Assembly: GCF_003384035.1 (NCBI RefSeq)
Contig: NZ_QQAK01000001.1
Coordinates: 1 to 64,000 of the forward strand
Reading direction: 5' to 3'
DNA length: 64,000 bases
From: Sporosarcina sp. BI001-red
Lineage (GTDB): Bacteria > Bacillota > Bacilli > Bacillales_A > Planococcaceae
Positions 2,860 through 35,013 of this stretch are shown in pieces. The notes under the pieces were generated by a model that did no database searches, was not told the origin of the DNA, and saw nothing but the letters and a program-made list of their open reading frames with translations. A program made the translations under genes and the position numbers. Position 1 is the first letter of the stretch. Every line of letters starts with the position of its first letter.

Positions 2860-3060
2860 ATGGAACAAGGTACAGTGAAATGGTTTAATGCAGAAAAAGG
2901 TTTTGGCTTCATCGAGCGTGAAGCAGGAGAGGACGTATTCGTTCACTTCTCAGCAATCCAAAGTGAAGGTTTCAAATCTTTAGACGAAGGTCAAAGTGTA
3001 ACATTTGAAATCGAACAAGGACAACGTGGCCTACAAGCTACAAACGTTCAAAAAGCTTAA
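2860..3060 (+). CDS. Cold-shock protein, CspA/CspB family
   Basis: A 66-residue single cold-shock domain that binds single-stranded RNA and DNA. RNP1 (KGFGFIE) and RNP2 (VFVHFSAI) are both present after the typical [10 protein letters not shown] start. The start at 2860 is chosen over an earlier in-frame codon because AGGAGGT lies at 2846-2852 and because family members begin exactly here. It acts as an RNA chaperone in the cytoplasm during cold or growth transitions. A long leader precedes it and a strong terminator follows at once. Confidence 0.95.
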
Positions 3061-3070
3061 TTATTGCTAG

Positions 3071-3103
3071 AAAAAGATCCTACGTGTAGGGTCTTTTTTT
3101 ATT
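3071..3103 (+). terminator. Terminator of the cold-shock gene
   Basis: Twelve-base stem AAAAGATCCTAC/GTAGGGTCTTTT with a two-base apparent loop, running into seven T residues. Confidence 0.85.
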
Positions 3104-3334
3104 TGCTTAAATTAATGTATTCTATTAGTAATCTGTGTCACACTGCTCAATCTTGTGTGCTGTTTGAAGTGGTTGTTTAAAATAAAGTCAAAATGGTTGT
3201 TAAAAATGCACCTTTTTACTCCTTTTGGACATGTAATGCCCAAAATGGACGAAAACTTACTTTTCATTAGGGAATAATCTTCTGCAGTAAGGATAGAAAG
3301 CCGTGTTTACTCAGGCCATTTTTTGAATAGAATC

Positions 3335-3370
3335 AAAAAAACGATCGGACAAGTGTCCAATCGTTTTTTT
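3335..3370. terminator. Bidirectional terminator before the MFS gene
   Basis: Symmetrical hairpin ACGATcGGAC/GTCCaATCGT flanked by A7 on the left and T7 on the right. It serves the minus-strand MFS gene and backs up the cold-shock terminator. Confidence 0.8.
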
Positions 3371-3416
3371 CAGTTAACCTGCGACGAAACCATCTTTGAT
3401 AAGGTTTTCAAGTAAA

Positions 3417-4622
3417 TCATTCAGTTGTAATGATGAAATCGCGACGACGAATAAATGCAAATAGAGCACCGAGTCCTAACAAAGTTGCTGCAAGGATAAA
3501 TGTGACCCTGACATCCCAAAGCTCTGCAATCGCCCCGAAACTTAGGGAGGATATACCGAATAACAGTGAAATTATGGCACTTTGAGCGGCGTATATTTTA
3601 GGAAGCTCGTCAGTAGTTGCAGACTTTTGAAGCATGGTCTCACTAACGATGGTTTTTAATTGTTGGACAATGCCATTCACTATAACTATTAGAATGGAAA
3701 CCCACGGAATGGTCGTCACTCCGAAAAGAAGAGTGACGCCGCTAATGCCAAGTGATAACAGAATGAGCAAGCGCTTTAGATTGTTTTCAATCCCAACTAC
3801 AAATCGAGAGCATATGACACCGCCAATTATCATGCCAAAGAAGAAGGCTGTATTCATGTACCCCCACCAAGCTTCTGTCTTACCGAGAATTTCTGTCACG
3901 AAGATGTAAAGGATTGAAGCGATCCATACAACATTGGCCATTGCCTCAAAAATAATGATCACATGTAAACTCCTGAAAAGCGGGTTTCTCCAGATGATCT
4001 GCCAACCTTCTGTTAGCTCACTCGTTCGTTTACCTTCCACTTCCTTTTTTCGAAATGGCGTAGGATCGCAAATGCCGAACATCATCATCGTTGCTATTAT
4101 ATACAGCACAACGGTACCGAAAATAACAAAATGCCCACTCGTTAATGCAACGGCTACCCCTCCGAGTGCCCAGCCTCCTAAATTCACTGTTTCAGAGACG
4201 ATGGAGAAGAAACTGTTCGCTTTGACGAGTTGTTCTTTTGGTACCAATCGTGGTAGCATAGCATGACTTGCCGGTGATGCCCAGCCATCCAAAAAGGCAA
4301 TACCACCCACAAAGGCCAGAATGATGAATAGACCAGACATTGTTTCGGATATCAAGAAAAGCGATAGAATAACTAGTAGCATGGTCTTGCTAACTTGTGA
4401 ATAAATGAGCAACGTCTTTAAAGGAAAACGATTCAACAACCACGGAGAGATGATTCCACTTATGAAACGGCCGAGCATATTGATGAAAGGTACCAATGCT
4501 AATGCAAAAGGCGATTCTGTAAGTGAATATAAAAAAGAAATGATCCCCACAATATAAAGAACATCGCCTAGATTAGCCATTGATTGGCCCATCCAAAGAA
4601 AACGAAATGATTGATTTTTCAT
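3417..4622 (-). CDS. MFS transporter, macrolide-efflux-like (MFS_3 type)
   Basis: A 401-residue integral membrane protein with about 12 hydrophobic segments. It begins with FRFLWMGQSMANLGD, a start common among MFS_3/MefA-like exporters, and has GWASPASHAMLPRLVPKEQL in the loop after TM4. Such proteins export drugs or metabolites in exchange for protons; the substrate cannot be read from the sequence. The start is preceded on the minus strand by AAAGGGG. It is transcribed alone, away from the next plus-strand gene, and ends at a bidirectional terminator. Confidence 0.8.
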   Translation of the reverse strand: MKNQSFRFLWMGQSMANLGDVLYIVGIISFLYSLTESPFALALVPFINMLGRFISGIISPWLLNRFPLKTLLIYSQVSKTMLLVILSLFLISETMSGLFIILAFVGGIAFLDGWASPASHAMLPRLVPKEQLVKANSFFSIVSETVNLGGWALGGVAVALTSGHFVIFGTVVLYIIATMMMFGICDPTPFRKKEVEGKRTSELTEGWQIIWRNPLFRSLHVIIIFEAMANVVWIASILYIFVTEILGKTEAWWGYMNTAFFFGMIIGGVICSRFVVGIENNLKRLLILLSLGISGVTLLFGVTTIPWVSILIVIVNGIVQQLKTIVSETMLQKSATTDELPKIYAAQSAIISLLFGISSLSFGAIAELWDVRVTFILAATLLGLGALFAFIRRRDFIITTE

Positions 4623-24380: not shown

Positions 24381-25610
24381 ATGAAGAATCTATTTACTAA
24401 ATGGAATCAAATCAGTCTAGTAAAAAGAATTATTGTTGGTATTATTCTTGGTGTTATTTTAGCTCTTACGGTTCCTAATGCAAGTTGGATTAATATTTTC
24501 GGTTCATTATTTGTCGGTGCTTTAAAAGCTGTAGCACCCGTTCTAGTATTATTTTTAGTCATGTATGCACTTGCTGCGCATAAGCGCGGTACGAAAACGA
24601 ATATGAAAACGGTTCTTGCTCTTTATGCAATTGGTACACTTCTAGCAGGGGTTGTCGCTGTTGCGGTAAGTTTTATATTCCCAGTCACACTAACGTTGAC
24701 TAAAGGCGCAGAAGGACTTACACCTCCAGAAGGCATTGTCGAGGTTCTTCAAACAGTCCTCTTTAATATGGTATCCAATCCAGTCGACGCATTACTAAAT
24801 GCGAACTATCTAGGCATTTTAATGTGGGCAGTTGTTCTGGGTCTTGCGTTAAAAAGTGCGAATCAAAACACGAAAGACATGTTAGGCAGTTTTTCAGATG
24901 CGATCACTAAAGTGGTACAGTGGGTCATCAGTCTAGCACCGATTGGTATTATGGGACTTGTATTTGATGCGATTGTAACAACTGGCCTTTCTTCTTTACT
25001 CGTTTACGGAAAGTTAGTAGTAATACTAGTTGGATGTATGCTGTTCATTGCACTTGTTGTGAATCCGTTGATCGTATATGTCTATATACGCAGAAACCCG
25101 TATCCACTAGTGTTCAAAGTGTTAAAAGAAAGCGGTATCACGGCATTCTTCACACGCAGTTCGGCTGCAAACATCCCTGTGAATATGAAATTATGTGAAG
25201 AACTTGGCTTGGATGAAGATACGTATGCCGTATCCATTCCTTTAGGAGCCACGATTAATATGGCGGGCGCAGCCGTTACAATATCTGTGCTTACACTTGC
25301 AGCAGTCCACACGCTTGATATTCATGTGGACTTCATGACTGCCATTCTGCTTTCTGTTATAGCAGCCGTTTCTGCAGCAGGTGCGTCAGGTGTAGCGGGT
25401 GGATCACTTCTATTGATTCCACTGGCATGTAGTTTGTTTGGTGTACCAAATGAGATTGCGATGCAAGTCGTAGGTGTAGGCTTTATCATCGGGGTTGTTC
25501 AAGACTCTTGTGAAACTGCATTGAACTCTTCGACGGACGTATTGTTCACAGCTGCAGCGGAGTATGCTAAAGAGTATAAGGAAAGTAAAGCTGCTACTGT
25601 AAAATCTTAA
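24381..25610 (+). CDS. sstT: Sodium/serine-threonine symporter SstT
   Basis: 409 residues, close to the usual ~414, with many hydrophobic segments of the DAACS (glutamate-transporter) fold. Diagnostic stretches are [59 protein letters not shown] and [20 protein letters not shown], which are the SstT-type hairpin loops. It imports serine and threonine with sodium. The start at 24381 is taken because the G7 run at 24368-24374 acts as ribosome-binding site; the 17-codon extension upstream is rejected. Intact partner of the remnant at 22517. Confidence 0.9.
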
Positions 25611-25631
25611 GGATAATAGGAATAAAAGAGG

Positions 25632-25671
25632 CTACAATTACCGGAGATAATCTGGTGATTGTAGTTTTTTT
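25632..25671 (+). terminator. Terminator of sstT
   Basis: CTACAATTACC and GGTGATTGTAG pair, followed by seven T residues. Confidence 0.85.
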
Positions 25672-25771
25672 ATTGTGGAATGCTGGTGAGTGAAACAAAC
25701 ATAATCGTTTTGATCAGGCTTTTTTATAAAGAGTGAGGCAGGGTATGAAAATCTAAAATAAGCTGTAACTG

Positions 25772-25805
25772 ACTATCCAACGGGTGCCATCACCTCGTTG
25801 GATAG
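25772..25805. promoter_or_regulatory. Perfect 11-bp inverted repeat upstream of the metal operon
   Basis: ACTATCCAACG and CGTTGGATAGT are exact reverse complements with a 12-base spacer containing GTG/CAC. There is no T tract, so it is not a standard terminator. It may be an operator or an mRNA-end hairpin. Confidence 0.5.
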
Positions 25806-25839
25806 TAGACCAATCATAAAAACATGTGAATATCAGAAT

Positions 25840-25882
25840 CTTGAGGAGCGTCAAGGTTTCAAATCAGAAACCCTCTTATACT
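25840..25882 (+). promoter_or_regulatory. Fnr/Crp-type box and -10 of the metal operon
   Basis: CTTGA-GGAGCG-TCAAG is a perfect five-base inverted repeat with the TTGA-N6-TCAA geometry of Fnr boxes. Its centre is 29.5 bases before the first base of TATACT (25877-25882), which places it at -41.5, the class II activator position. No good -35 hexamer exists. The operon's third gene encodes an Fnr-type regulator with ETVSR in its recognition helix, so autoactivation is the simple reading. Confidence 0.7.
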
Positions 25883-25925
25883 ACAGGTAGAAGATAAGTA
25901 ACCAACTCATAGGAGGATGAAGATT

Positions 25926-26147
25926 ATGAAAAAAGGTGTATTTACATTAGAACCACTTAGCTGCCCGTCGTGTATTAAGAAGATTGAAAGCGCGTTAGGA
26001 AAAATGGAAGGGATTCAAGAAGTGAAAGTCCTGTTTAACTCGAGTAAAGTGCGTACTCAGTTCGATGAAGACAAAGTCACAGCGGATGAAATCCAACAAA
26101 CGATTTCAAAGCTAGGCTATCCAGTACTTACACAAAAAGTATCTTGA
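25926..26147 (+). CDS. HMA-domain metallochaperone
   Basis: 73 residues, one heavy-metal-associated domain. The metal site CPSC lies near residues 13-16 (LSCPSCIKKIESAL), and the end IQQTISKLGYPV is typical. It is a stand-alone CopZ-like carrier. Since the ATPase next door lacks any N-terminal metal-binding domain, this protein probably serves that role in trans. The start at 25926 is chosen because AGGAGG (25911-25916) is nine bases away and touches the earlier ATG at 25917. First gene of a three-gene operon. Confidence 0.85.
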   Translation: MKKGVFTLEPLSCPSCIKKIESALGKMEGIQEVKVLFNSSKVRTQFDEDKVTADEIQQTISKLGYPVLTQKVS

Positions 26148-26175
26148 ACGACCACTCAGGAAAGGAGGACCCGTC

Positions 26176-28062
26176 ATGAATGCAAAAAGAACGTATCAAA
26201 TCACAGCTGTAACAGCGATACTACTGCTCCTCGCAATTGGGCTCCATTTTTCAGGCTTGGCAGAAAGTCAGAAATGGACGCTGATTACAGCGACTGTCAT
26301 TGCAGGGACACCTATCGCATGGAAAGCAAGTCAAGCACTTCGAATGAAAGCGTTCAGCATTGAACTGCTCGTAACCATCGCAGTCATCGGTGCCTTATTC
26401 ATCGGAGAATATGTTGAGTCCGCTGCGGTTACATTTCTCTTCTTGTTCGGGGCTTTTCTTGAAGTTCGGACACTCGAAAAAACTCGCTCGTCACTCAAAT
26501 CACTCATTGACATGGCACCACTTGAAGCAACGGTCATCCGGGAAGGCGAAACAATGACGATTTCAATTGAAGACGTCATAGAAGGAGACCGCGTGATCAT
26601 CCGCTCTGGAGAAAAAGTCGCAACGGATGGCGTCATCGTCACAGGAAACGCAACAGTCAACGAATCAGCGATTACTGGGGAATCAGTACCCGCTCGAAAA
26701 GCAATAGATGACCGCGTCTTTAGTGGGAGTATCGTCGATAACGGATTCATCGAAGTGATCGCTGACCGCGTAGGTGACGACACAACTTTCGCACAAATCA
26801 TAGAACTTGTAGAAGAAGCACAAGAAACGAAATCGAAAACACAAAAGTTCCTCGATCGTTTTGCAACAGTGTACACTCCAGCGATCGTCATATTATCTAT
26901 ACTTGTCTACATTTTTACACGAAATATTGAAATGACACTGACATTCTTAGTCGTCGCGTGTCCAGGTGCACTCGTCATCTCTGCTCCCGTATCCATCGTC
27001 GCAGGCATTGGAAATGGAGCTCGACACGGTGTGCTCGTCAAAGGCGGCGAAATCATGGAAAATCTAGCAAAAGTCGACACCGTTGTGTTCGATAAAACAG
27101 GAACACTTACAAAAGGACGTCCTGAAGTGATGGATATCTACACTGTCGAAGGCGATGAAAACAAATTACTGCGTCTTGTCGCTGAAGCCGAAATGATTTC
27201 CGAACATCATCTAGGTCAAACGATCGTGAAAGAAGCTCAAAAGCGAGGAATCACGTTAATCAATCAACCTAACGACGCTGAAATCATCGAAGGCAATGGT
27301 GTGCGCGTGACAATTGAAAACAAAATCCTCACAGTCGGCAATCGTAAACTAATGGCGGCTAGAGACATTGTCATAGAAGAATCCATCGAAGCGTACGCAG
27401 TTCAACGAGAAAAAGCTGGCAGTACAGCCATCTTCGCAGCCATTGACGGAGTCGTGCAAGGTATCATCTCCATTGCAGATCAGATTCGTCCGGAAGCAAA
27501 AGAAGCGATACAAGAGTTGAGAGACAATGGTGTCAAACAAGTGATTATGTTAACGGGTGACAATCGGCATACAGCCGAATTGGTCGGCAAACAGCTCGGA
27601 CTTGATCACATTCACTCAGAGCTATTACCGGAAGACAAAGTAGCGTGGATCAAGCAGTTAAAAGCAGCTGGCCACATCGTCGCGATGGCGGGAGACGGCA
27701 TTAACGATGCACCCGCAATCGCGACAGCAGACATTGGACTCGCCATGGGGGAAGGCGGAACCGACATCTCGATGGAAACGGCCGATGTTGTCCTTATGGC
27801 AGACCGACTCGACCAGTTCTCTCACGCCCATGCATTAGCAAAAGCAACCATCCTAAATATGAAGCAAAACACATATTTCGCAGTTACAACGGTATTCATC
27901 CTACTTGCGGGTGTCCTTTTCGGAAAAGTTTTTCTTGCTTCAGGCATGCTCATCCACGAAGTGAGTGTATTGCTCGTCATCCTCAACGCAGTTCGCTTAA
28001 TGCGGTATACGAAGAAGGAAAGGAAGCGAAATATACCGAATAGAGTACTACAACCGGAGTGA
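26176..28062 (+). CDS. Atypical P1B-type heavy-metal ATPase (CPG in the transport helix)
   Basis: 628 residues with the P-type ATPase core: TGES (actuator), DKTGTLTKG (phosphorylation aspartate), TGDN, and GDGINDAPA. Two hallmarks of heavy-metal pumps deviate. The transmembrane CPC/SPC motif reads CPG (ACPGALVISAPVS), and the nucleotide-domain signature SEHP reads SEHH. The last helix has HEVSVLLVILNAVRL, near the Zn/Cd/Co group. There is no N-terminal metal-binding domain. It probably exports a divalent metal or related ligand; the substrate is open. AAAGGAGG lies before the ATG, 28 bases behind the chaperone gene. Confidence 0.85.
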   Translation: MNAKRTYQITAVTAILLLLAIGLHFSGLAESQKWTLITATVIAGTPIAWKASQALRMKAFSIELLVTIAVIGALFIGEYVESAAVTFLFLFGAFLEVRTLEKTRSSLKSLIDMAPLEATVIREGETMTISIEDVIEGDRVIIRSGEKVATDGVIVTGNATVNESAITGESVPARKAIDDRVFSGSIVDNGFIEVIADRVGDDTTFAQIIELVEEAQETKSKTQKFLDRFATVYTPAIVILSILVYIFTRNIEMTLTFLVVACPGALVISAPVSIVAGIGNGARHGVLVKGGEIMENLAKVDTVVFDKTGTLTKGRPEVMDIYTVEGDENKLLRLVAEAEMISEHHLGQTIVKEAQKRGITLINQPNDAEIIEGNGVRVTIENKILTVGNRKLMAARDIVIEESIEAYAVQREKAGSTAIFAAIDGVVQGIISIADQIRPEAKEAIQELRDNGVKQVIMLTGDNRHTAELVGKQLGLDHIHSELLPEDKVAWIKQLKAAGHIVAMAGDGINDAPAIATADIGLAMGEGGTDISMETADVVLMADRLDQFSHAHALAKATILNMKQNTYFAVTTVFILLAGVLFGKVFLASGMLIHEVSVLLVILNAVRLMRYTKKERKRNIPNRVLQPE

Positions 28063-28075
28063 AGGGAGAATTCCA

Positions 28076-28783
28076 ATGACTGAACACAATTCCTGCGGAC
28101 ATGAAGCGGCAAGTAACGAGGAGATGCGTCATTCCTGTATCGCGACTGTACCGATTTTCAACCATTTAACTGCAGAGGAAATGAATGAAATTGTAAAAAC
28201 GACCAACTCCGTCGCGTATGCAAAAGGAGAAGCCATCTATCACGCAGGTGAACCTTCTATCGGACTGCAAATCGTGCACAAAGGACGACTCAAAATCTAT
28301 CGATTATCGGAAACAGGAAAAGAACAATTGGTTCGCATACTCGGTCCAGGAGACTTCACAGGGGAACTGTCGCTCTTCAGCGAATCCGTGAACGATGCAT
28401 ACGCAGAAGCCTTAGAGCCAATAGAAATATGTGCCATGAATCGCGAAACCCTCCAACAGTTTTTATTGAAATACCCACCCATCTCACTGAAGATGTTAAC
28501 CGAGTTTTCTTTACGACTGTTAAAATCCGAACAGCAATCGGCCAGTATCGCAATGGAGACCGTTGAAATGCGAATTGCGATGTATCTGGCAGACCAAACC
28601 GAAGAACAACGAAGTCAATTGATCACACTACCTATGACACGTAAAGACTTGGCTTCGCATCTCGGAACGACACCTGAAACGGTGAGCCGTAAGTTGACGG
28701 AGTTTGAGGAGGCAGGGTGGATTGAGCAAGAGACGCAGCGGGAAATTCGGGTGTTGGATTTGGATGCTTTGTTGTTGGCTTGA
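28076..28783 (+). CDS. Crp/Fnr-family regulator (Flp-like)
   Basis: 235 residues: a cyclic-nucleotide-binding-like domain at ~25-145 (GEPSIGLQIVHKGRLKIY, GPGDFTGELSLF) and a C-terminal winged helix with MTRKDLASHLGTTPETVSRK. The recognition residues E, S and R of ETVSR are those of Fnr, which reads TTGA half-sites. The N-terminal extension has two cysteines and histidines (NSCGHE, RHSCIA), which could bind metal or a redox centre as in Flp/Fnr relatives. It starts 13 bases after the ATPase stop and belongs to that operon, whose promoter has a matching box. Confidence 0.85.
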   Translation: MTEHNSCGHEAASNEEMRHSCIATVPIFNHLTAEEMNEIVKTTNSVAYAKGEAIYHAGEPSIGLQIVHKGRLKIYRLSETGKEQLVRILGPGDFTGELSLFSESVNDAYAEALEPIEICAMNRETLQQFLLKYPPISLKMLTEFSLRLLKSEQQSASIAMETVEMRIAMYLADQTEEQRSQLITLPMTRKDLASHLGTTPETVSRKLTEFEEAGWIEQETQREIRVLDLDALLLA

Positions 28784-28857
28784 AATCTTTTGAATAGCAA
28801 AAATTATTCTGATCAATGTGAGATTCAACCATGAAAAATTATTGCATAAGTGCCTTA

Positions 28858-28898
28858 ACTAGCTCCTTCCTATTCAGGAGGGGTCTAGTTGGTTTTCT
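28858..28898 (+). terminator. Terminator of the metal operon
   Basis: AACTAG plus CCTTCCT pair with GGAGGGG plus CTAGTT; a short TTTT tract follows. Confidence 0.6.
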
Positions 28899-28921
28899 GA
28901 TATAGCGACATGGTACAGATA

Positions 28922-28930
28922 TGATACAAT
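28922..28930 (+). promoter_or_regulatory. Extended -10 promoter of the hsd operon
   Basis: TGATACAAT, about 100 bases before hsdM. No convincing -35. Confidence 0.35.
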
Positions 28931-29031
28931 CAGAGGTAGAACCATCTTTTTTACAGGAACGAGGAAATGAAGCAATCGTAAGATGAATTCTACCAAAGAA
29001 CAATTACATACAGAAAAGTGAGGAACACATT

Positions 29032-30624
29032 ATGTCCGAGTTAAACTCAAGATTATTTAGTGCGGCAGATAATCTGCGCAGCAAAATGGATGCATCCGAA
29101 TACAAAAATTATTTATTAGGTTTGATTTTCTATAAATATCTATCCGACCTGCTGCTTGTAAAAGTTGTGGAGCTAGCAGATGAATCAATAGAAGAATTCG
29201 ATACTGCAGAAAAACAGACACAACTGTATACCGAGTTGTTGGCGGATGATGATGTGAAGAGCGACTTGATAGAGACATTAGTCGACACAGTGGGGTATGA
29301 CATTCAGCCGGAATATTTGTTCAGTTATTTAACGGAGCAGGCAAAGCAAAACACATTTCAGTTAAATGAATTAACAAAAGCGTTTACGGATCTATCAACA
29401 AGATACCTACAATTCTCAGGACTGTTCGATGACGTCGATTTGACATCGAAAAAGCTAGGTTCTGATCCCCAGCAGCGCAACATTACGATTTCAGAGGTCA
29501 TTAAAAAACTGAATCCGATTAATCTATTAGGTCATGGCGGGGACGTGATTGGTGATGCATATGAATACCTCATTAGCCAATTCGCATCTGAAGCTGGAAA
29601 AAAGGCGGGGGAATTCTATACCCCACACGAAGTATCTGTCATGATGGCGCGTATTGCCGCAATGGGGCAAGAAGACAAACAGTTGTTCAGTGTTTATGAC
29701 CCAACGATGGGGTCGGGCTCACTTATGTTGAACATCCGGAATTATCTCAATCATCCTGAAAACGTGAAGTATCACGGACAAGAGCTGAACACGACAACGT
29801 TCAACTTAGCGAAGATGAACCTGATTCTACATGGCGTTGATAACGAAGACATCCGTCTTAGCAACGGCGATACATTGAATAAAGACTGGCCGACAGACGA
29901 GCCGTATACATTTGATTCCGTATTAATGAATCCGCCGTATTCAGCGAAGTGGTCATCCGATGATACGTTCTTAGACGATTCAAGGTTCAACCGATATGGC
30001 CGCCTAGCACCAAAGTCAAAAGCAGACTTTGCTTTTCTATTACACGGTCTGTATCACTTAAAAGACTCGGGAACGATGGCAATCGTATTACCACACGGTG
30101 TGTTATTCCGCGGCGCTGCGGAAGGAATTATTCGAAAGAAACTACTAGAAGACGGCAGCATTGACGCAGTCATTGGCATGCCATCGAATCTATTCTTCGG
30201 GACGTCGATTCCTACGACAGTGATCATCTTGAAGAAAAACCGAACAACACGTGATGTATTATTCATCGACGCAAGTAGTGAGTTCACAAAAGGTAAAAAC
30301 CAAAACAAATTATCGTTGGAGAATCTCGATAAAATCGTTGAAACGTATGAAAAGCGAGAAGATGTTGAGAAGTATTCGCACGTTGCGAGTTTTGAAGAAA
30401 TTAAAGAGAATGAATTCAACTTGAACATCCCACGTTATGTCGACACGTTTGAAGAAGAAAAGCCTGTTGATATGGCGGCGGTTGGGGCAAGTATTAAAGA
30501 TATTCGTAAAGAGAAAGCTGAATTAGAGAAAAATCTATATAAGATGATTTCTTCATTGGAGTATGGTGAAGAGAATGAAGAATGGATTAAAGGTGCATTA
30601 GAGGTGTTTAATCGTGGGGAATAA
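29032..30624 (+). CDS. hsdM: Type I restriction-modification DNA methyltransferase HsdM
   Basis: 530 residues. N-terminal HsdM_N helical domain (LFSAADNLRSKMDASEYKNY) and an N6-adenine methyltransferase domain with SAM motif YDPTMGSGSLML and catalytic NPPY (LMNPPYSAKW). It methylates adenine in the target half-sites given by HsdS and is part of both the M2S methylase and the R2M2S nuclease. The gene heads an operon in the order M-S-R, overlaps hsdS by 11 bases, and is full length. Sequence character is close to the type IC group, but that subgrouping is inference. Confidence 0.93.
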   Translation: MSELNSRLFSAADNLRSKMDASEYKNYLLGLIFYKYLSDLLLVKVVELADESIEEFDTAEKQTQLYTELLADDDVKSDLIETLVDTVGYDIQPEYLFSYLTEQAKQNTFQLNELTKAFTDLSTRYLQFSGLFDDVDLTSKKLGSDPQQRNITISEVIKKLNPINLLGHGGDVIGDAYEYLISQFASEAGKKAGEFYTPHEVSVMMARIAAMGQEDKQLFSVYDPTMGSGSLMLNIRNYLNHPENVKYHGQELNTTTFNLAKMNLILHGVDNEDIRLSNGDTLNKDWPTDEPYTFDSVLMNPPYSAKWSSDDTFLDDSRFNRYGRLAPKSKADFAFLLHGLYHLKDSGTMAIVLPHGVLFRGAAEGIIRKKLLEDGSIDAVIGMPSNLFFGTSIPTTVIILKKNRTTRDVLFIDASSEFTKGKNQNKLSLENLDKIVETYEKREDVEKYSHVASFEEIKENEFNLNIPRYVDTFEEEKPVDMAAVGASIKDIRKEKAELEKNLYKMISSLEYGEENEEWIKGALEVFNRGE

Positions 30625-31822
30625 AAAAATTCCGGAAGTTAGTTTTTCAGGATTTGATAAGGAATGGAAAGTAGAAAAGTTAGGGGATTTAGTATCAATA
30701 AAATCAGGTTGGTCTCCATCGAACTTTAATGAAACTCATAATAAAAAGGGCTCTTTATTTATAAAAGTCGATGATTTAAATTATTCATCACGTGAACAAA
30801 TGAATTCTCGTATGAAAGTCGAAGATACTCAACGATTTATGAAAATGAAAAAAGGTAGCACTATCTTTCCGAAAAGAGGTGCTGCCATAATGACAAATAA
30901 GATTAGAATTCTAGGCTTGGATGCCTACATGGATACAAATATGATGGCTCTAGAACCATTAAGTATAAATGGAGAGTTTCTTTATACATTTATATCAAAA
31001 ACTGGATTATATAAAATTGCTGATACATCTACATTGCCACAAATCAATAATAAACATATTGAACCCTACATTATTTTTCTTCCTACTGAAAAAGAGCAAA
31101 AAAAGGTAGGAGAGTTTTTTAAAACACTTGATAAAATTATCACTCTCCACCAACAAGAACTAACTACCCTCAAACAAACAAAACAAGGGTTCTTGCAAAA
31201 GATGTTTCCGAAGGAAGGCGAGACAGTTCCGGAAGTTCGGTTTCCGAAGTTTAGTGGAGAGTGGGAAAATCGGACACTGGACCAAGTTTTCAAAGAATTT
31301 ATTGTACCAATGAGAGATAAACCAAAAGAATTTTCTGGTGATATACCATGGACGAGAATTGAAGATATTGAGGGCAGATATATTAATGGCACTAAAAGTG
31401 GCCAATATGTTTCTAAAGAAACCATCGACTTAATGAAATTGAGGATTATACCTAAAGGATCTTTAATTGTTTCGGCAAGCGCTACATTTGGAATCGTGGC
31501 TATAGTGAATAACGATTTAATAACTAATCAAACTTTCATAGGTTTAGTACCAAATACAAATAACAATATAGAGTTTTTATATGCTTTTTTCAAGTCGGCT
31601 AGCATCACCAAAAAATTAAAAAGAGAATCTGCAGGTTCAATCATATTTTATATATCAAGAAAGCAGTTTGAGAATTTAGATGGTAGCTTTCCAGGATTCG
31701 AAGAACAAACCCAAATCGGCAATTTCTTCAAACAACTAGACGACACAATCTCTCTCCATGAACAAGAACTTGAAGCATTGAAACAAACAAAACAAGCATT
31801 TTTGCAAAAGATGTTTGTCTGA
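30614..31822 (+). CDS. hsdS: Type I restriction-modification specificity subunit HsdS
   Basis: 402 residues with two target-recognition domains at about 1-165 and 205-375. Each is followed by a nearly identical conserved helix: LHQQELTTLKQTKQGFLQKM in the centre and LHEQELEALKQTKQAFLQKM at the end. The two TRDs differ, so a bipartite asymmetric target is expected; its sequence cannot be predicted. The GTG start overlaps the hsdM end by 11 bases, so translation is coupled. The ~75-bp DNA repeats coding the helices could recombine and delete or swap a TRD. Confidence 0.9.
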   Translation: MGNKKIPEVSFSGFDKEWKVEKLGDLVSIKSGWSPSNFNETHNKKGSLFIKVDDLNYSSREQMNSRMKVEDTQRFMKMKKGSTIFPKRGAAIMTNKIRILGLDAYMDTNMMALEPLSINGEFLYTFISKTGLYKIADTSTLPQINNKHIEPYIIFLPTEKEQKKVGEFFKTLDKIITLHQQELTTLKQTKQGFLQKMFPKEGETVPEVRFPKFSGEWENRTLDQVFKEFIVPMRDKPKEFSGDIPWTRIEDIEGRYINGTKSGQYVSKETIDLMKLRIIPKGSLIVSASATFGIVAIVNNDLITNQTFIGLVPNTNNNIEFLYAFFKSASITKKLKRESAGSIIFYISRKQFENLDGSFPGFEEQTQIGNFFKQLDDTISLHEQELEALKQTKQAFLQKMFV

Positions 31823-31845
31823 GTAGCTGGAAAGGAGGAGTACGG

Positions 31846-34800
31846 ATGTCAAAACTTCAGTATAACGATGAAGCCGAAGTGGAACGCCGCCTGATTGAAG
31901 TGTTAGGCGAAGGTCATAATCAGTGGAATTACAGGCCGGATTTGAAGTCGGAAGAAGATTTGTGGAACAACTTGAGAAAGATTATTACGCAAAATAATTT
32001 ATCTGAAATTGGAGAAGTGCCGCTTACGGACCATGAATTTGAAACGATTCAAACGGAATTGATGCTAGTGACGAAGACACCGTTTGAAGCAGCTAAATGG
32101 CTGAAAGGTGAAAATGGAATTGCGCGGATTACGATTGAACGAGAAGACGTGTCGCTTGGTTCCCTATCACTCGTGTTGTATTCGAATCAGGATATTGGTG
32201 GCGGCATCTCAACCTATGAAGTGGTAAATCAGATTGCGAAACAGAAAATAGACGATACGGGACGTGACCGTCGATTCGATGTCACGTTGTTAATCAATGG
32301 ACTGCCGATTGTGCAGATTGAGTTAAAACAAGTGACTGCGAAAGATGGCGTTTATCAAGCGTTTAATCAAATCAAAAAGTATGCCGAAGAGGGCGTATTC
32401 CGTAACAACATCTTTGCGACGCTTCAGTTGTTTGTTATCTCGAATGAACAAACGACGCGTTACTTCGCAAATGCAATGCCGAAAAATCTTCATCGGAAAT
32501 TCATTTTCAGCTGGCGCACACCCGACAATGAAAAAGTAGACAACTTGTATGACTTTTGTAAACAAGTACTCAACATTCCCGATGCACATCGTCTCATAGC
32601 GAACTATACGATCGTGAGTGAAGATCAGGACAATAAAGTGTTGATGGTCTTACATCCATACCAAATCCATGCGATTGAAGCGTTATTTGCTTCTGCCATG
32701 AAGCACGAATCGGGGTATGTCTGGCATGCGACTGGTTCTGGTAAGACGCTGACGAGTTTTGTGTCGACCAAATTGCTTGCTCGAAAACCGGGTGTCGATC
32801 GTACAGTCATGCTTATCGACCGGAAAGACTTGGACAATCAGACAACGAGTGAATTCACGAAGTTTGCGTCAGAATACAATACCGGAATTTCATCCGGTAC
32901 AGCAAGATCGAACAGCTTAATAGTCGGTACGGGAAGTTCAAGAGAGCTCAGTGAAACATTGCTATCGAGTGCAAACTCAAATGCGGTCATAGTCACGACG
33001 CGTCAAAAGCTTGAATCTGCATTGAAACATGCGAAGCGAGTAGAAGAAGAGCGAGGGACGAACCGATTTAAAAAGCTGATCGGTGAGCACATCGTTTTCG
33101 TCGTAGATGAATGTCACCGTGCGTTAAGCGCTGAAGGCATGAAGTCGATTCAAGAATTCTTCCCGAATTCCACATGGTTCGGTTTCACAGGAACACCGAT
33201 ATTTGAAGAGAATAAAAAACAAGCTCAAGGTAGTCTTGCGCGCACGACTCATGACCAATACGGAGAAGTACTGCATACGTATACCATTAAAAATGCATTG
33301 GAAGACGGTGCGGTATTAGGATTCCAAGTCGAGCATGAAGATACGATTGACGGAGACTCGCTATATGAAAATATCTATGACCAGCTGCGTCAAAAAGAGA
33401 AGTATGCGAATCTGTCGAGTGATGAATTGGCCAAATTTATTGACGAAATGGATCCGATTAAAAAAGAAGAGTTTCTGGAGACCACGACGTTTGAGACAGA
33501 TGATCATATTCAAGAGGTCCTTCATAAACTATTGAAACCAGACAATGCGTATACAAAGTTTGATTTTAAAAATGGGCGTCCGACGAAATCAGCTATTTTG
33601 ACAACGAGCTCCATTAATATGGCGAAGCGCTATTATCACGCCATTAAAAAGATGACGGCAACTCCAGAATGGATGGCAACGGAATTTGCTGCTCATCCAC
33701 TGCGTAAAGGACGGACGATGGATGATCCTGATTTTCCACGAATTGCGATTACGTATTCCCTTTCAGAAAACGAAGAGAATGCCAACGATTCCCAAGAGGA
33801 AATGAAAGCAATCATCAACGACTACAATGCCTATTATGGAACTGCCTGGTCGTTGGAAGACATTGACCGTTACAACGGGGACATTAACAATCGACTCGCA
33901 CGAAAACGAGCGGAGTTTAAAAAAGTCGGTAAGCAAGTCGATTTAGTCATTGTCGTCGATCGTTTATTGACTGGCTTTGACGCACCGACAGTTCAAACGT
34001 TGTTTGTCGATCGGAACCTTAGTTATGCGAATCTAATACAAGCCTTTTCCCGAACGAATCGGACATATCCAGATAAGACTAAAGGATTGATCGTCACGTA
34101 TCGTAAACCTGCGACTATGCAGAAAAACGTAGAAGAAGCGACGAAGTTATACTCACAAGCACAGGAAGAAACGATGCTTGTTTATCCGTCTTATGAGAAG
34201 TCAAAAAAACGCTTTGACACAGCACATCAAGAATTCAATACTTCTGTACCGGATATTGCAAATGTGGACGAACACTCCCCATTGGAACATCGTGTGGAAT
34301 TTGTGAAAGCGTTCCAGGAGTTAAACAATGCGTTCGAAGCACTTGTCACGTACGATGACTACAATGATGACATGGAGAAATCGGAAGTATTGCAAGAACA
34401 AGTAAAAACACTGGAAGAGTACGTAGGAATTTATAATACAGTGAAAGGTTCACTTATAAATGAATCTGACCCAGCTGACCCAGCAGATCCGATTGAGGAC
34501 TTCTCGGAAATCGAATTTTATGGCGATAACACAGCGAAACTCTATGACATCGATTCCGCGTACATTGACCAGTTGTTAGAAGCATATACACCGAATAATA
34601 AGGACACGCGCGAAGAAATTGAGCGAGCGCTGCAGAAGATGAACAAACCAGAAGCCGTTAAAAACATCTACCACAATATGCTGAACGAAATCGATACGAG
34701 ATTAGTCGAACCTGACGAAGACATCATGGCCATCAAACGGAAGTACTTCAAAGAGGCTTCCAATGCAGCCATCGAAAACTTATCGAACACGTGGTTCGTC

Positions 34801-35013
34801 AACGAAGACCAGCTGCATTTATCGGCTATTCAATATGTCCCGGGATCCGATGATATCCCAAACATCAGCGGTATTCTGGATAGTAAACGATTCGACAAGT
34901 ATAAAGAAATCCATCCAACAGCGAAGCCATTGAAATATGGGCCGCAGATGAAACGTGAGTGGTTAAAGATGTTGCAAGATGAGATTGTGCCTTATGGGGA
35001 TGAGTTGCGGTAG
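31846..35013 (+). CDS. hsdR: Type I restriction endonuclease/translocase HsdR
   Basis: 1055 residues, normal length. The N-terminal nuclease domain carries the PD-(D/E)xK-like RFDVTLLINGLPIVQIELKQ. The SF2 motor has Walker A HATGSGKTLTS, motif II VVDECHRA, motif III GFTGTPIF and motif VI QAFSRTNR. The C-terminal helical region binds the M2S core. It translocates DNA from unmethylated sites and cleaves on collision. AAAGGAGGAG lies before the ATG, 23 bases behind hsdS. No interruption is seen, so the system should be functional. Confidence 0.93.
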   Translation: MSKLQYNDEAEVERRLIEVLGEGHNQWNYRPDLKSEEDLWNNLRKIITQNNLSEIGEVPLTDHEFETIQTELMLVTKTPFEAAKWLKGENGIARITIEREDVSLGSLSLVLYSNQDIGGGISTYEVVNQIAKQKIDDTGRDRRFDVTLLINGLPIVQIELKQVTAKDGVYQAFNQIKKYAEEGVFRNNIFATLQLFVISNEQTTRYFANAMPKNLHRKFIFSWRTPDNEKVDNLYDFCKQVLNIPDAHRLIANYTIVSEDQDNKVLMVLHPYQIHAIEALFASAMKHESGYVWHATGSGKTLTSFVSTKLLARKPGVDRTVMLIDRKDLDNQTTSEFTKFASEYNTGISSGTARSNSLIVGTGSSRELSETLLSSANSNAVIVTTRQKLESALKHAKRVEEERGTNRFKKLIGEHIVFVVDECHRALSAEGMKSIQEFFPNSTWFGFTGTPIFEENKKQAQGSLARTTHDQYGEVLHTYTIKNALEDGAVLGFQVEHEDTIDGDSLYENIYDQLRQKEKYANLSSDELAKFIDEMDPIKKEEFLETTTFETDDHIQEVLHKLLKPDNAYTKFDFKNGRPTKSAILTTSSINMAKRYYHAIKKMTATPEWMATEFAAHPLRKGRTMDDPDFPRIAITYSLSENEENANDSQEEMKAIINDYNAYYGTAWSLEDIDRYNGDINNRLARKRAEFKKVGKQVDLVIVVDRLLTGFDAPTVQTLFVDRNLSYANLIQAFSRTNRTYPDKTKGLIVTYRKPATMQKNVEEATKLYSQAQEETMLVYPSYEKSKKRFDTAHQEFNTSVPDIANVDEHSPLEHRVEFVKAFQELNNAFEALVTYDDYNDDMEKSEVLQEQVKTLEEYVGIYNTVKGSLINESDPADPADPIEDFSEIEFYGDNTAKLYDIDSAYIDQLLEAYTPNNKDTREEIERALQKMNKPEAVKNIYHNMLNEIDTRLVEPDEDIMAIKRKYFKEASNAAIENLSNTWFVNEDQLHLSAIQYVPGSDDIPNISGILDSKRFDKYKEIHPTAKPLKYGPQMKREWLKMLQDEIVPYGDELR

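Follow-up and report, generated by a model that had tools for sequence, protein, structure and literature searches.

A three-gene metal operon in the window (the whole 64,000-nucleotide stretch of Sporosarcina sp. BI001-red DNA analysed here) is probably switched on by its own third product: we propose that an FNR-like regulator of the FLP class activates the operon from a class II site at −41.5, with a P1B-type pump as its output. Comparison of orthologues brings out the operator, its spacing, the missing −35 element, the wiring, the Cys pair and the pump motifs. What we infer from them, namely binding, activation, the switch, which metal is moved and in which direction, would run as follows. 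The regulator would bind TTGA-N6-TCAA at −41.5 and recruit RNA polymerase to a promoter with a −10 hexamer and no −35, giving class II positive autoregulation. The output would be a small soluble HMA protein together with a P1B ATPase whose most likely task is the export of a divalent metal, with iron(II) or zinc as our best guesses; the trigger would be a change in redox state or in metal load, and the switch a thiol pair, possibly together with a metal or cluster held on a His/Cys-rich tail. We consider class II self-activation likely because the box, the spacing and the wiring are conserved and because the regulator has the E..SR helix of FNR.

The operator and its promoter

The operator, CTTGA-N6-TCAAG, occupies 25840–25855 on the forward strand (CTTGAGGAGCGTCAAG); this full box adds the C/G flanks to the core TTGAGGAGCGTCAA at 25841–25854, which is centred at 25847.5. 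The −10 hexamer TATACT (25877–25882, forward strand, centre 25879.5) starts 22 nt past the core, so that the distance from the box centre is 29.5 nt to the first base of the hexamer and 32 nt to its centre. With the hexamer set at −12 to −7, from which the transcription start follows, the box falls at −41.5. An earlier note on this DNA had read the same box 29.5 bases before TATACT, in class II spacing, and as a reading of the sequence this was exact; its statement that there is no good −35 agrees with the sequence AGGTTT that stands 17 nt upstream of the −10, where a −35 would lie, and with a consensus scan that found no sigma-70-like promoter on the + strand at the operon. No Rfam match was found in 25560–29060. 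In the stretch separating the operon from the symporter-like gene upstream of it we noted two hairpins by eye, at 25636–25668 and 25771–25807; the latter is without a T-run in the window, a T-run is present in the close relative L039, and it looks like a decayed terminator.

Conservation of the box and its spacing

By itself the box proves nothing, because the 60 matches with at most one mismatch in the window equal the number in shuffled sequence (expectation 60.8). Once orthologues are compared, the box is not a chance match. An exact TTGA-N6-TCAA lies within 200 nt of the HMA gene in all 40 co-directional operon promoters (35 from the window's own genus g1 and five from genus g26), TCAAGG is found in 40/40, and the best −10-like hexamer starts 22 nt past the box in every one, ties having been resolved toward 22 nt; in five of the promoters this hexamer is GATAAT rather than TANNNT. 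Control dyads and spacers (4, 5, 7 and 8) gave 0 or 1 of 40. Since the bases inside the box and within the 22-nt gap vary across these promoters, the box and its spacing are a footprint and not mere kinship. The conservation counts come from related sequences and are not independent; loci L120–L122 are almost identical, as are several of the plasmid loci described below. Dropped before counting were L062 (a pump match of only 38 residues, with no HMA), L067 and L068 (regulator only), L056 and L057 (remnants), and L058 and L071 (distant regulators); L055, which has a frameshifted regulator, was left out of the 77-sequence Cys count and kept in the HMA alignment and the 40-promoter analyses. Of the named relatives in which the operon was found, Sporosarcina sp. 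ZBG7A is the nearest, with a regulator 93% identical. Locus L043 has the HMA gene tandemly duplicated along with its boxed promoter (3005–3550).

We examined 19 further loci, from genera g36, g37, g41 and g29 and from divergent members of g1, in which the HMA and pump genes are often divergent or separated. The count was made by rule, setting the first module gene on each strand against later ones. Each of the 30 first module genes is preceded by an exact box, and TANNNT follows it at exactly 22 nt, whereas genes that follow another module gene have a box in five of 14 cases and none in nine, two of these nine lying past gaps of 234 and 346 nt.

Among plasmids, 460 records encode a protein related to the regulator (E 1e-20 or better), with Enterococcus (246), Lactococcus (78), Leuconostoc (37) and Listeria (26) as hosts, among others. 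Fourteen of the 460 were analysed with 6 kb flanks, and 12 of these encode a pump, an HMA protein, a protein annotated as Dps-type or 'DNA-binding', and the regulator. A box precedes 36 of the 48 plasmid module genes (12/12 pumps, 12/12 HMA genes, 6/12 dps and 6/12 regulators), and the 12 boxless genes are dps and regulator genes situated behind HMA. Thirty-five of these boxes are perfect and one has a single mismatch; a gap of 22 nt separates 35 of them from the −10, and one has a gap of 21. An expression table for Staphylococcus equorum (PMC9477809) lists the four plasmid genes side by side.

In Alcaligenaceae, where the regulators are 50–55% identical to that of the window, TTGTC-N4-GTCAA is found in 6/6 loci, with TANNNT 22 nt (two loci) or 23 nt (four loci) on. 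The six loci (L063–L066, L069 and L070) have the same three-gene order, with pumps 63–68% identical to the window pump, which suggests that the operon was transferred across phyla.

Genes of the operon

The three genes lie close together, with gaps of 28 and 13 nt, and the domains of their products (PF00403 (HMA), E1-E2_ATPase, cNMP_binding and HTH_Crp_2) each score above the Pfam cut-off. The first gene (25926–26147, forward strand) encodes an HMA-domain metal-binding protein of 73 aa with the motif SCPSC (PF00403, 3.9e-14), in which both CxxC cysteines are kept in 63 of 64 alignment rows, the remaining row being a gap. An upstream ATG at 25917 would give 76 aa; the start at 25926 is more likely, because AGGAGG (25911–25916) abuts 25917 and because L042, L044, L047 and L048 have the second ATG only. 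Downstream of the operon, at 29032–35013, we recognized by eye type I restriction-modification genes for methylase, specificity and restriction subunits.

The second gene (26176–28062, forward strand) encodes a P1B-type heavy-metal ATPase of 628 aa (TIGR01525, 562.6 bits against a cut-off of 346.25), with CPG and with HEVS in the last membrane helix. CPG, the HE pair and a Ser three residues past the His are each present in 63/63 orthologous pumps, and DKTGT and GDGxND are likewise invariant. Compared along its full length, the pump is closest among solved structures to copper ATPases, with 7qbz close behind (364.6 and 358.9 bits); for the last 140 residues 7qbz comes first, and HExS falls on HEGS at its residue 657. 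We take 7qbz as sCoaT because PMC8880997 numbers HEGxT from H657, and the same paper gives the P1B-4 site as HEGxT plus SPC. Set against HEGxT, the HE and Ser are kept in 63/63 and the Gly is not retained in most; neither the SPC of P1B-4 nor the CPC of the P1B-1 copper pumps occurs among the 63, which all have CPG. The last helix thus resembles P1B-4, but we do not file the pump as P1B-4 because the SPC test failed. Given this P1B-4-like helix, metal export by the predicted pump is plausible. A role in copper supply, as an analogue of CcoI/FixI, was considered and placed below export given the CPG/HExS motifs. At residues 344–345 the usual P1B HP motif is HH in 59/63 orthologues.

The third gene (28076–28783, forward strand) encodes the regulator, 235 aa with matches to PF00027 and PF13545. 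Its cNMP_binding (78.2 bits) and HTH_Crp_2 (75.3 bits) scores, both over cut-off, place it in the Crp/Fnr superfamily, and the Fnr recognition residues ETVSR that the earlier note had pointed out are there, in the helix PETVSR (E201 in 62/64, S204 in 62/64, R205 in 63/64). A profile search of the home genome gave one strong HTH_Crp_2 match (77.4 bits) and a second, partial place (27.4 bits against the Pfam cut-off of 27); a search with the protein itself found no second relative in that genome at E 0.001.

Cys21 and Cys119 are invariant in 77/77 regulators. They are the only invariant ones, where canonical [4Fe-4S] FNR has four cluster Cys, and the score for NCBIfam Fnr (PRK11161) is 64.8 against a cut-off of 228 bits. 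Two conserved Cys instead of four is the mark of the FLP class, as defined in PMC5039431, and in the number of its Cys the regulator fits this two-Cys class. In the distant relative L058, whose tail reads CxxC-x3-C, the last tail Cys and the EVC Cys align with C21 and C119, so that two of four Cys positions remain in the window regulator. According to PMC5039431, FNR-like proteins of Gram-positive bacteria often have two Cys, their cluster formation is disputed, and L. lactis FlpA is described as having an oxygen-labile iron-sulphur cluster ligated by N-terminal residues other than Cys; if so, two Cys would be compatible with a cluster in an FNR-like regulator.

The tail before Cys21 is five times richer in His and Cys than the rest of the protein (16.4% versus 3.2%); 65/77 tails have at least two such residues and 5/77 have none. 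The tail may be a loosely defined stretch that binds a metal or a cluster. The earlier note had placed the sensor in an N-terminal Cys/His cluster, and of this the His/Cys-rich tail does recur in relatives, but the individual residues are not fixed, C7 being Cys in 34/77 and H9 being His in 38/77. A structure model of the regulator was of moderate quality (pLDDT 75.7, pTM 0.52); a fold search with it placed mycobacterial CRP at the top and A. fischeri FNR at rank 26, and the fold therefore cannot separate FNR from CRP.

The putative regulon at home and in relatives

TTGA-N6-TCAA with 21–23 nt to TANNNT occurs at 18 places in the home genome, compared with 11 for a reversed-pattern control, and CTTGA-N6-TCAAG at 13 sites, compared with seven. 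Eleven of these 13 lie within ORFs of at least 150 aa and one is the window site; the last, C12:15063, is about 340 nt from the next co-directional ORF. Among the 18, one other intergenic place precedes a gene, C11:457008 before one that by eye is mnmE-like; it does not have the Y/R inner bases and was left uncounted. The stricter pattern TTGAYN4RTCAA-N22-TANNNT has no match in the home genome, and the window box, with G at position 5, also misfits it. No box was found at the home oxidase genes, and no relative of the Big_14 lipoprotein was found in this genome. By these pattern searches the home regulon seems to consist of the window operon only. The search for more TTGA-N6-TCAA boxes at −41.5 that the earlier note had proposed thus turned up no second convincing site in this genome, and relatives have several.

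Because the home regulon seems to be one operon, we draw our functional hints from relatives. Boxes there precede a flavodoxin gene (L201 and several g37 loci), a Big_14 lipoprotein gene (L203 by Pfam, L209 and L210 by similarity, L205 by eye) and, in g37, haem-copper oxidase genes (COX1 and COX2 over the Pfam cut-off), which in L199 lie beside HMA and the regulator. By eye the oxidase is of type ba3, and a Dps gene follows the pump in L148. In the plasmid modules dps (as annotated) is boxed, and cadD with ArsR, fetB or VIT1 genes lie near the module on some plasmids. In L198, a box at 4606–4619 with its −10 at 22 nt points away from the oxidase genes. Of the 37 genomes of genus g1, 18 match the regulator at E 1e-51 or better, and a pump scoring >900 bits occurs in precisely these 18; in one of them, G003, the promoter is intact and the regulator gene next to it is frameshifted. 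Only remnants of the regulator are left in G006 and G023, and in G027, a draft of about 320 contigs, boxes and divergent pumps are present and an intact regulator was not found.

Alternative readings

The companion genes hint at iron or zinc as the metal, under redox control, and our guess of iron(II) or zinc is made because Dps with a P1B pump resembles MrgA with PfeT and because zinc is reported for L. lactis FLP (PMC9964109). Against the main reading, the companions point in two directions, to oxygen and respiration (oxidase, flavodoxin) and to iron and peroxide (dps). Also counting against it are the nine boxless follow-on genes of the rearranged loci and the genomes G003, G006, G023 and G027, where the regulator is frameshifted, reduced to remnants or not found intact.

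A variant of the main reading differs in the signal: the His/Cys-rich tail and the Cys pair would bind the very metal that is pumped, in the manner of a dedicated resistance operon. The enrichment of the tail, the apparent single-operon regulon at home and the cadD with ArsR, fetB or VIT1 genes near some plasmid modules speak for this variant, but the tail positions vary, five tails have neither His nor Cys, and the oxidase, flavodoxin and dps among the relatives' regulon members suit a redox signal better, so that we hold it to be rather unlikely.

Distinctly less probable, in our view, is a low-oxygen regulon in which an oxygen-responsive FNR drives a pump that supplies metal to a high-affinity terminal oxidase, as FixK/FnrL does with CcoI/FixI in proteobacteria. 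The boxed promoters before haem-copper oxidase genes in g37 would suit this, as would the regulator gene lying beside moaA- and narK-like genes (by eye) in two g37 genomes, the role described for CcoI/FixI in published abstracts, and the oxygen-labile cluster of FlpA, without Cys ligands, described in PMC5039431. However, the pump lacks the copper-type CPC and has a P1B-4-like C-terminus, the oxidase genes at home have no box, and the 12 plasmid modules carry dps, with no oxidase annotated in their 6 kb flanks.

The regulator might instead be an autorepressor that covers the −35 region from its site at −41.5 and keeps polymerase off until a signal releases it. Metal-pump operons are often repressor-controlled, and the position of the box would permit occlusion too. 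Yet there is no −35 to occlude, and the 22-nt gap, fixed in 40/40 and 30/30 promoters, is needed by an activator that touches polymerase and not by a repressor, which makes autorepression quite improbable. That the box is a chance match, as its shuffle-like frequency in the window would allow, is practically excluded by its fixed spacing and its conservation in 40/40 promoters. For self-activation, which the earlier note had also put forward, comparison provides the support: the box, its spacing and the FNR-type regulator encoded in the operon are conserved together.

Relation to known systems

E. coli-type FNR combines an E..SR recognition helix with a TTGA-N6-TCAA box and class II spacing at −41.5; the window regulator equals it in helix, box and spacing, but has C21 and C119 alone as invariant Cys. 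Gostick (1999) reportedly announced in its title a flp regulator gene within an operon of Lactococcus lactis, and may already describe boxes before lactococcal flp operons; Scott (2000) is said to have dealt with zinc and L. lactis FLP. The FLP class (Lactobacillus casei FLP, and flpA/flpB of L. lactis) is like the window regulator in having two key Cys instead of four, a likeness that goes by description (PMC5039431). PMC9964109 and PMC6196286 link FLP to zinc and to oxidative stress, respectively, and PMC3547956 states that the region upstream of flpB lacks a motif that had been proposed for FlpA, and reports another motif. In contrast to what is described for FLP systems, the window has an operon for an HMA protein and a CPG pump; neither this operon nor its series of boxes was found described in the open literature searched.

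The P1B-4 ATPases sCoaT and PfeT share with the window pump the HE-x-S of the last helix and the lack of a fused metal-binding domain; they have SPC (PMC8880997) where the window pump has CPG, and the window encodes a separate, adjacent HMA protein. No description of a P1B subclass with CPG/HExS was found in the literature searched. The PerR regulon of B. subtilis (MrgA/Dps and PfeT; PMC9993123) also couples a Dps-type protein with a P1B pump, but PerR is a Fur-family repressor and the window protein belongs to Crp/Fnr, with Dps paired to it in relatives and on plasmids and not in the home operon.

FLP has been associated with zinc and oxidative stress from about 2000 onward, its targets and signal being still open in the literature searched. 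A box 22 nt before a −10 would mark the target units, and FLP targets would thus be readable from sequence; the FLP question could then be tested as which metal, which redox signal and what cargo for the CPG pump. The comparison also draws attention to a self-regulating module for metal and redox stress that is common on plasmids in bacteria of food and gut. More broadly, these may be parts of a portable metal/redox regulon comprising a two-Cys FNR-like activator with a His/Cys-rich tail, near-identical −41.5 boxes, a P1B pump of the CPG/HExS kind, an HMA protein and, outside the home genome, Dps, a tentative idea that we lean somewhat against as it stands. If true, a Crp/Fnr activator would here run a defence against peroxide/iron or zinc in parallel with PerR and Fur, and the regulon would have been exchanged among Planococcaceae, lactic acid bacterial plasmids and Alcaligenaceae.

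The two analysed plasmid loci without the module, L235 and L236, were left out of the 12; there the related regulators adjoin nrdI or nrdE/F. The box facing the nrd side is perfect in L235, where it faces nrdI, and has one mismatch in L236, where it points away from the regulator.
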